A stretch of 25,284 nt of DNA from a virus, in IMG/VR virus record IMGVR_UViG_3300034198_003779, positions 1 through 25,284 of that record. The stretch is one strand, 5' to 3'. Below are positions 23,979-25,277 of this stretch, in pieces. The notes beneath the pieces were generated by a model, which ran no database searches, was not told where the DNA came from, and saw nothing but the letters and a program-made list of their open reading frames with translations. Positions within the stretch are counted from its first letter, which is position 1; the number at the start of each line of letters is the position of its first letter. The position numbers and the translations under genes were made by a program.

Positions 23979-23982
23979 CAAT

Positions 23983-24074
23983 TGTAGCTCACGGGTTTAT
24001 CTATCCTTAAAATGCATAATAAGTTATCTTTGTGGGAGTGCCATCTCACAATTCCTTTAAATTTGTGAGCTACA
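23983..24074 (+). ncRNA. Candidate structured RNA closed by a 17-bp stem
   Basis: Bases 23983-23999 (TGTAGCTCACGGGTTTA) can pair along their full length with 24058-24074 (TAAATTTGTGAGCTACA): 14 Watson-Crick pairs and 3 consecutive G-U pairs. Inside lies an 8-bp hairpin, TTGTGGGA (24030-24037) with TCTCACAA (24044-24051), including one G-U, loop GTGCCA. A weaker 4-bp hairpin (24006-24009 with 24020-24023) has a loop carrying the palindrome ATGCAT. The whole is a possible three-way junction of 92 bases. The three G-U pairs are consistent with pairing as plus-strand RNA rather than DNA. No open frame of note lies in it, and it is not tRNA-like. Function unknown. Confidence 0.55.
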
Positions 24075-24354
24075 CTACATATTCTTTATAGCCCGGTTTC
24101 ACTGGGCTTTTTCCTTTTAATACTGCCCACGTATTCTGCTCACGCATATACTGATCTAACCAACTGTTAGCTTTCAAATATGTTTGTGGGCGTTTTCTTG
24201 CTCTGCCTGAGCCTACACTTTTAGGTGGTTGGAATATAATAACATCGTTGTCACGCATAAGTTTTAAAAACTTATCTAAGTCTGGACTGAATGGACTAGA
24301 CCATATATCAAGCATCTGTGTTATTCTAATAAAGTTATAACATTTTACATTCAT
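24070..24354 (-). CDS. Hypothetical basic protein
   Basis: 94 residues on the minus strand, with a start at 24354 overlapping the stop of the gene upstream of it (ATGA), which favours this start over an in-frame ATG at 24372. The N-terminus is MNVKCYNFIRITQML, followed by a helical segment (DLDKFLKLMRDNDVIIFQPP) and a Lys/Arg/Gly-rich stretch (KSVGSGRARKRPQTYLK). A mixed tail with aromatic residues ends it (WLDQYMREQNTWAVLKG). No family recognised. Its 3' end overlaps the terminator and one arm of the structured element that belong to the opposite strand. Confidence 0.6.
   Translation of the reverse strand: MNVKCYNFIRITQMLDIWSSPFSPDLDKFLKLMRDNDVIIFQPPKSVGSGRARKRPQTYLKANSWLDQYMREQNTWAVLKGKSPVKPGYKEYVV
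24090..24118 (+). terminator. Intrinsic terminator for plus-strand transcript
   Basis: AGCCCGGT (24090-24097) pairs with ACTGGGCT (24101-24108) around a 3-base loop, with one G-U pair, and is followed by TTTTTCCTTTT on the plus strand. It lies 15 bases after the structured element and inside the last codons of the minus-strand gene. It can end both read-through from the fiber operon and any separate small RNA from 23984. Confidence 0.85.
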
Positions 24355-24845
24355 TTTAATAACTGTTCCCAAATGTATTCTTTGCTTGCTAATATTTCTT
24401 TTACTTTCTTTCGGTAAATCTTAACTGCTTGTGTGTTGTGTATCAGTTCACGGTTGTTTACTTTACGTGCATATTCAAATCCATGATTGCTCCAAGCTAT
24501 ATGTTCTGGTAATGCCGGGCTATTCTTTATAGATAACGCTACACGGTCCAATCGTCTTTTTTCTTTACGTGCTGATTTTAATTTATCTTCTAGGTATTTT
24601 AATAATAGAATGTATGCTTCATTTTCAGTAAACTTGGCTTTCTTGTCGTACTGTCTTACATCATCACGTAGTTCATCACTGAACAATAATGAGATATGGT
24701 TGCGGTTATATGTGTAATTACATAGTTTATCACTATGTTTGTTACCAAAATGATAATCTACTGGTTGTGGTGTGGACCATTCACTTCCACTATATTGTTT
24801 GGGCGTAAAGACAAACTTTACTAGTTTTGGTTTATATTTTTTCAT
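24351..24845 (-). CDS. Hypothetical basic protein, reversed unit
   Basis: 164 residues on the minus strand, basic and Tyr/Lys-rich. The N-terminal third is beta-like with turns (MKKYKPKLVKFVFTPKQYSG; PQPVDYHFGNKHSD). The middle contains HISLLFSDELRDDVRQYDKK and then a long charged helix (YILLLKYLEDKLKSARKEKR). The C-terminal part is a second basic helix. No known motif was recognised. GAAGGAA lies just upstream of the ATG, and TAAATATATAAT on the minus strand (24874-24863) is the likely promoter. The downstream gene at 24354 is coupled by ATGA. Function unknown. Confidence 0.65.
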   Translation of the reverse strand: MKKYKPKLVKFVFTPKQYSGSEWSTPQPVDYHFGNKHSDKLCNYTYNRNHISLLFSDELRDDVRQYDKKAKFTENEAYILLLKYLEDKLKSARKEKRRLDRVALSIKNSPALPEHIAWSNHGFEYARKVNNRELIHNTQAVKIYRKKVKEILASKEYIWEQLLK

Positions 24846-24951: not shown

Positions 24952-24966
24952 TATAATTAATAAATA
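24952..24966 (+). promoter_or_regulatory. Tandem promoter elements: TATAAT and TAAATA
   Basis: TATAAT (24952-24957), a perfect host sigma70 -10 hexamer, is followed by TAAATA (24961-24966). No good -35 hexamer is seen at 17 bases upstream of TATAAT. Either element would drive the structured leader at 25003 and the gene at 25095. The pair could allow both early and late expression, which is inference. Confidence 0.45.
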
Positions 24967-24991
24967 CATTTGTACTTAGTGACATTTGTAC
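24966..24991 (+). repeat. Direct repeat ACATTTGTAC, possible operator
   Basis: ACATTTGTAC occurs at 24966-24975 and again at 24982-24991, 16 bases apart, overlapping the predicted transcription start region. Two identical 10-base sites about 1.5 helical turns apart at a promoter suggest a binding site for a regulator. No regulator gene is visible in the window. Confidence 0.4.
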
Positions 24992-25002
24992 ATTCCTAAT
25001 AT

Positions 25003-25065
25003 ATGTCAAACGAAGTCCCCAGCTGAACACTGGGGCTTCATCTCAAGTTCAGGTGAGATTGACAT
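25003..25065 (+). ncRNA. Candidate three-way-junction RNA leader with complementary loops
   Basis: P1: ATGTCAA (25003-25009) pairs with TTGACAT (25059-25065), 7 bp. P2: GAAG-CCCCAG (25012-25022 with a bulged T at 25016) pairs with CTGGGGCTTC (25030-25039), 10 bp. P3: TCTCA (25041-25045) pairs with TGAGA (25054-25058). The P2 loop contains CTGAAC (25023-25028), which is exactly complementary to GTTCAG (25047-25052) in the P3 loop, so a 6-bp loop-loop contact or an alternative fold is possible. TTGACA is repeated at 25065-25070, offering P1 a second partner. It lies about 30 bases before the ATG at 25095. A riboswitch-like leader or stabilising element is inferred; no known class is recognised. 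Confidence 0.55.
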
Positions 25066-25094
25066 TGACAGGAAACATATATAAAGGAAAAGAA

Positions 25095-25277
25095 ATGAAC
25101 GAACTCAACGAATTGGCGATCATCCGCCTGCAAACAGAACTTGAAAACGCTATTGGTTTCAGGGAGTATTTTCTACGGGAAAATGACTTGCATAGCTATG
25201 CAACGTGGGACCAAACATTAGACGATATTATTAATGAAATTATGAATCTGGAGAATGATTATGGATCATCCAGATAA
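25095..25277 (+). CDS. Small acidic helical protein
   Basis: 60 residues from the ATG at 25095, chosen because AAAGGAAAAG stands just before it; a longer in-frame form from 25053 would start within the structured leader. It is acidic and helical (LAIIRLQTELENAIGFREYF; TWDQTLDDIINEIMNLEN) and ends YGSSR. No family recognised. It appears to begin a new rightward operon under the promoter elements near 24952 and 24961 and the structured leader. Its stop overlaps a likely next gene starting at 25261. Confidence 0.6.
   Translation: MNELNELAIIRLQTELENAIGFREYFLRENDLHSYATWDQTLDDIINEIMNLENDYGSSR

Follow-up and report, generated by a model that had tools for sequence, protein, structure and literature searches.

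What function does a compact three-way junction with exactly complementary apical loops serve at the right end of a phage genome fragment, directly ahead of a 60-aa open reading frame (25095-25277)? The sequence analysed (the window) is a 25,284-bp IMG/VR virus fragment encoding a late phage module that includes the terminase large subunit, portal, major head protein, a spanin-like gene and an HNH endonuclease; a scan of the window returned no tRNAs and no Rfam families. The original prediction for positions 25003-25065 described three helices of 7, 10 and 5 bp, two to three unpaired junction bases, a perfect 6-base match between the apical loops (CTGAAC and GTTCAG) and a location ahead of a small gene's ribosome-binding site. 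All of these are borne out (Table 1), with a bulged U (25016) as an extra feature and with AC (25010-25011) and A (25040) as the junction bases. Absent from that prediction were an anti-Shine-Dalgarno (anti-SD) strand, an SD-like decoy and a second fold, and these elements suggest what the leader does. As developed below, the region is probably the 5' leader of an early/replication operon of an uncultivated phage, and, as judged from comparative sequence analysis and modelling, would act in cis as a two-state translational switch.

Table 1. Features of the predicted leader in the window.
Feature	Position	Strand	Basis or remark
Predicted promoter -10, TATAAT	24952..24957	+	Nearly all of the 16 homologues have TAAATA and, at this spacing, a hexamer like TATAAT/TACAAT/TATACT
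TAAATACA, 3' of the -10	24961-24968	+	Probable transcription start
5' terminal hairpin of leader	24965..24990	+	Predicted in 16/16 leaders at the same place, stem sequence varying
Anti-SD strand UUCCUAAUAUAUGU	24993..25006	+	Predicted to pair in state B with the SD strand, in state A with the decoy and the 3' strand of P1
P1	25003-25009/25059-25065	+	7 bp, ATGTCAA/TTGACAT
P1 5' strand AUGUCAA	25003..25009	+	Outer AUGU common to P1 and anti-SD helix
P2 hairpin GAAG.U.CCCCAG / CUGGGGCUUC, loop L2 CUGAACA	25012..25039	+	Fold and covariation
L2 kissing sequence CUGAAC	25023..25028	+	Complementary to L3, covaries
P3 hairpin UCUCA/UGAGA, loop L3 AGUUCAGG	25041..25058	+	Fold and covariation
L3 kissing sequence GUUCAG	25047..25052	+	Complementary to L2, covaries
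P1 3' strand UUGACAU	25059..25065	+	Pairs with 25003-25009
SD-like decoy AGGAA	25070..25074	+	Predicted to pair with UUCCU 24993-24997 in state A; linker-shuffling effect
SD strand ACAUAUAUAAAGGAA, SD AAGGA 25084-25088	25075..25089	+	Predicted state B helix
First gene of operon, 60-aa protein without known function	25095..25277	+	Relatives of its leader head operons with Prim-Pol and DUF3987 or DUF5906 proteins

In the window, the P2 helix spans 25012-25022/25030-25039 (10 bp plus the bulged U) and the P3 helix 25041-25045/25054-25058 (5 bp), and the fold has a minimum free energy (MFE) of -24 kcal/mol (z = -3.2), a value equalled or bettered by one of 200 shuffled sequences. When 17 phage sequences were scanned with a structural descriptor, comparable junctions with complementary loops turned up in shuffled DNA as well, so the geometry of a single sequence is insufficient and the proof has to be comparative.

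At least 16 distinct leaders from related uncultivated phages were identified, and the comparison covers 16. L001 was reached through a relative of the downstream protein, and its leader forms the junction again, here with UUCGCC/GGCGAA as loops. A loop-free P1/P2 pattern recovered L085, L087 (from the same phage as L001), L088, L089, L090 and L091, a shorter P1/P2 pattern recovered L118, and a covariance model recovered G001 among records selected by terminase only. L198 was found with a pattern of promoter, anti-SD strand and P1 that specified neither P2, P3 nor the loops; these parts are wholly different in sequence in L198, and loop pairing is still present. A divergent group (L203-L209 and L213) was found by loop-based searches or by position, and its loop pairing was not counted as independent; the covariance model recognises most of this group (E-values of 2e-4 for L208, 6e-4 for L205 and 2e-3 for L206), with L204 and L203 scoring weakly. 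BLASTN of the leader against annotated phages returned nothing homologous. Several other candidates were discarded, including an exact match to the P2 pattern on another phage contig (L003, an unrelated hairpin), two matches to the first pattern (L084 and L086, unrelated terminator-like hairpins) and most matches to GTCAAACGAAGTCCC and to TAAATACA..TCCTAA..TGTCAA, which arose by chance except for known members, L118 and L198. A further match at G006:C1:31523-31591 (-), with a model E-value of 0.06, has a P2-like GAAAUCCCCCG stem lacking a matching P3 or kissing partner; it is probably a terminator and possibly a decayed copy of the leader.

Ten leaders were recovered by searches that took no account of the loops. 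All of them show 6-7 bp of L2-L3 complementarity, with loop sequences that read CUGAAC(C), UUGAACC, UUCGCC, UUAGCG, CUCGCCU and UUGGUAG; loops shuffled with the same letters reach at least 6 bp in about 0.7% of cases. Among the 16 hand-segmented cores, two-sided changes occur in 19 of 22 stem pairs and only 3 of 321 cells are non-canonical, a count favoured by a segmentation that was itself fitted to the structure and that was done by hand because MAFFT misaligned the second group when given all 16 cores. For eight cores that were aligned by MAFFT, pairing is 96.9% vs 31-52% for slid versions, and the covariation score of 0.148 (0.079 in shuffles) was not reached in any of 500 shuffles. P1, P2 and P3 covary across homologous leaders, the check named beforehand, and a search for homologues with uncompensated breaks in the loop or P1 pairing found both pairings kept; the claim of a real folded leader with conserved loop-loop pairing is thereby supported. 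The 16 leaders have 1-3 unpaired junction bases in J12, 0-3 (mostly none) in J31 and, in J23, one A, the only invariant base among them (A25040 in the window); the CAUCU segment formed by the end of P2 and the start of P3 is also well kept. The three-way junction with its touching loops is, on this comparative evidence, the conserved core of the predicted switch.

The elements flanking the junction point to a second fold. Every group-1 leader carries UCCUAA (UCCUUU in L118) just 5' of P1, followed by letters complementary to those that precede the SD; the window version pairs UUCCUaAUAUAUGU with ACAUAUAUaaAGGAA. The anti-SD strand forms a duplex with its own SD strand of -10.8 kcal/mol on average, compared with -6.8 kcal/mol for the strands of other leaders and -4.6 kcal/mol for shuffled strands, and none of 100,000 permutations was as good (p <1e-5); within group 1 alone, the means are -11.3 (own) vs -7.4 kcal/mol (cross), again with p <1e-5. 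The decoy, which takes the forms AGGAA, UAGGA, UAGGAG or AAAGG among the leaders and whose pairing continues P1, likewise prefers its own anti-SD strand (-8.2 vs -5.7 kcal/mol; permutation p 1e-5, group 1 p 0.0015), and both pairings covary. In L203, L204 and L207 the junction is present and the decoy less clear. Since the outer bases of P1 are common to both structures, the full P1 and the anti-SD/SD helix are mutually exclusive; computationally, the leader has the competing anti-SD pairings, one occluding the SD, that are expected of a translational switch. In the proposed state A, P1 would close the junction, the anti-SD strand and the decoy AGGAA would extend P1, and the real SD would be free for translation, whereas in state B the SD strand would be bound by the anti-SD strand together with the outer P1 half, with loss of P1, a hidden SD and translation off. 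A third competing pairing, between UUUUGAC of the 5' hairpin and GUCAAA of P1, was inspected by eye and discarded for lack of conservation in the L205 group.

When 13 leaders were folded under constraints (L203, L204 and L207 were left out), the two states came out close to balance: at 37 C, dE(B-A) lies between -2.0 and +2.5 kcal/mol, with a mean of about -0.2 (-0.16) kcal/mol, values that derive from nearest-neighbour energies with an error of 1-2 kcal/mol and that include neither the kissing interaction nor Mg2+. Shuffling the decoy linker shifts the mean for these 13 leaders to -3.6 kcal/mol, and the proportion with an absolute dE(B-A) of at most 2 kcal/mol falls from 12 of 13 natural leaders to 17%. 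Unconstrained folding gives state B as the MFE structure in the window, L087, L088, G001 and L207, and state A in L085, L089, L090, L118, L198, L205, L206 and L208; state A of L205, L206 and L208 has part of the SD engaged in other pairs. For nascent RNAs in which the SD strand has yet to be made, the P1 probability is 1.00 in 13 of 13, and the full-length RNAs are mixed between states. Because the decoy and P1 emerge ahead of the SD, state A would be expected to form first during transcription and then to decay towards state B, such that young transcripts would be translated and older ones shut down, with P2, P3 and the loop-loop contact forming a rigid core that would set how long P1 stays closed.

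What would trigger such a switch is a more tentative matter, and the candidates rank as a ligand-free timer, protein control, a metabolite and dimerisation, in that order. The timer is placed first because no pocket is conserved and the loop sequences vary freely; a ligand-free timer loaded by transcription is the leading candidate, although its probability falls short of even. An input acting on the junction, whether ligand, protein or Mg2+, is a lesser possibility, and a comparably tentative wider proposal is a ligand-free translational timer or transcript-dose sensor in which fold lifetime or transcript self-association would set the translation time of the replication mRNA. Metabolite control, in which a small molecule bound by the junction and kissing loops would stabilise P1 and turn translation on, would suit both the outline shared with purine-type translational riboswitches (P1-P2-P3, a loop contact, and P1 competing with SD sequestration) and an expression platform balanced near zero. 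It is nonetheless unlikely: with linkers of 0-3 nt and A25040 as the sole invariant unpaired base across 16 homologues, almost no unpaired junction bases are conserved and a small-molecule pocket is therefore not indicated. The loops, moreover, change freely, the first genes of the operon vary and no Rfam riboswitch matches. The earlier view of a ligand-binding fold as such is not supported by this comparison. A phage or host protein that recognised the shape of the junction and locked state A or B, for autoregulation or early/late control, would agree better with a conserved shape in which little unpaired sequence is kept, with the retention of CAUCU and with a position at the operon head, and is somewhat less doubtful than metabolite control. 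However, no candidate regulator was identified, and the first downstream proteins differ among homologues and match no known RNA-binding family.

Less likely still, in our estimate, would be a homodimer sensor, in which L2 and L3 pair between two transcripts and accumulating mRNA dimerises and shifts the switch. The two complementary loops belong to one RNA, and each covaries with its own partner. The unequal lengths of P2 and P3 that led the original prediction to raise pairing between molecules are real; they do not, however, require a dimer, as the 10-11 bp of P2 roughly equal the 3-5 bp of P3 and the 6-7 bp of the kissing helix combined, a geometry into which a one-molecule contact could fit. 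The free variation of loops that still match each other led us to discard the idea that they target another RNA in trans. Similarly improbable is a static SD lock or thermometer, in which only state B would matter and the junction would just shorten the loop closed by the anti-SD helix. No long-range pairing is as consistent as the anti-SD/SD helix, cooling to 20 C moves most leaders towards state B, and coexistence of the anti-SD helix with a shortened P1 could amount to a simple SD lock, but the decoy pairing is under selection (own vs cross, group 1) and the balance between states is abolished by shuffling the decoy linker, which counts against a static lock. Finally, chance hairpins or a terminator-like relic devoid of RNA function might account for the descriptor matches in shuffled DNA and for the unrelated hairpins L003, L084 and L086, yet for the leader itself this explanation is contradicted by homologous position, covariation and energy balance, and can virtually be set aside. 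We therefore return to the two-state translational switch, with a ligand-free timer as its tentatively preferred trigger.

Comparison with known systems places the leader near, and outside, the established families. An Rfam 15 search at gathering scores with the window, L198, L206, L118 and L204 found no family match, and the purine riboswitch RF00167 gave none even at E-values up to 5. As anticipated, the leader resembles a purine riboswitch in shape without being one. It shares with the adenine-responsive (add-type) translational members the P1-P2-P3 junction, the loop-loop interaction (supported here by stem and loop covariation) and a P1 exchange that would free or hide the SD, but the 16 leaders lack the conserved multi-nucleotide junction strands that form the pocket, have linkers of 0-3 nt and unequal P2 and P3, and make a full kissing helix of 6-7 bp that is free in sequence. 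Modelling thus predicts a leader that functions in the manner of a translational riboswitch, on an outline like that of the purine riboswitch. Compared with phi29-type pRNA and other self-associating RNAs, loop complementarity is likewise present, and its sequence fits intra- and intermolecular pairing alike. The lysine riboswitch also forms an L2-L3 kissing contact of ~6 bp between two apical loops of one junction and uses P1 as the switch helix, but is built on a five-way junction with a large conserved core, whereas the leader is three-stemmed and conserves hardly any unpaired base. Translation timed by successive folds is known from the MS2 maturation leader, whose co-transcriptional metastable fold sequesters the SD, and the phage lambda cIII early mRNA is bistable, with two near-equal folds of which one blocks the ribosome; cIII differs in its structure and has no junction or decoy SD. 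In the Helicobacter pylori aapA3 toxin mRNA, translation is similarly timed by successive folds of one leader, but the transient co-transcriptional fold hides the SD, whereas the first fold of our leader is predicted to expose it, and the abstract mentions no junction of this kind (PMC6733600). The yxjA purine riboswitch shares co-transcriptional strand exchange between aptamer and expression platform and differs in being transcriptional and guanine-responsive (PMC9756952). The aquatic phage Melnitz carries a structured regulatory RNA, a glutamine (glnA) riboswitch, which belongs to a known family with its own conserved core (PMC9004378). The literature searched, which covers few subscription papers, contained no description of this leader, which from sequence is a new, putatively cis-regulatory RNA, unmatched in Rfam, that heads a phage's replication operon. 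It would add an experimentally tractable switch to phages, where few structured cis-regulators have been reported. Since it conserves mainly shape and self-complementarity, the leader is a natural system in which to ask whether a kissing-loop three-way junction can time translation without a metabolite, and the related leaders, whose predicted balance points span -2.0 to +2.5 kcal/mol, constitute a ready panel for such a timing test.

The genomic setting bears on which genes the leader would control. The small proteins encoded 3' of homologous leaders fall into at least three unrelated types, and in several phages small first genes are followed by genes for Prim-Pol and DUF3987 or DUF5906 proteins; as the first genes vary and the position at the operon head is constant, the leader travels with the operon and not with one gene. 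It is also modular across phages, as G009 and G014 have a related small gene behind a short plain leader without the junction element. The leader was seen in 7 of 16 phage genomes compared (G001, G003, G016, G018, G025, G031 and G036), all of which have a close TerL relative, a rate that is biased because three of the seven positives were included as already known carriers of the leader or related genes; the leader is non-universal. The bacterial genomes searched gave neither an RNA match nor a TerL relative, and for this reason no host is named. Upstream, we infer that the TATAAT-like hexamer together with TAAATA forms the promoter; no good -35 element is present, and a consensus scan made no promoter call. 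The 5' terminal hairpin is weak in the window (-4.4 kcal/mol), and most homologues carry UGAC in the loop or close to it.

Additional observations concern neighbouring sequences. TAAATACA / TATAAATAC recurs 5' of several phage genes (window 23973 and 24961 (+), L088:636 and L089:14201), one copy in L088 preceding a probable head gene, and could serve phage-wide as a promoter or start-site motif. Two minus-strand open reading frames (100 and 164 aa; window 24070-24845 (-)) have no Pfam or PHROG match and recur in G003 and G031, where they are placed differently relative to the replication genes. A second candidate conserved structured RNA, without an Rfam match, lies 3' of the HNH/spanin genes (window 23980-24075 (+)) and has homologues in G009, G014, G018 and G025. 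It consists of a closing stem of 10-12 bp (TGTAGCTCAC/GTGAGCTACA), one hairpin whose loop contains UGCAU and one whose loop contains GCCA, followed by UCCUUUA, and RNAalifold of five sequences finds two-sided changes in 14 of its 25 pairs, with the loop bases conserved.
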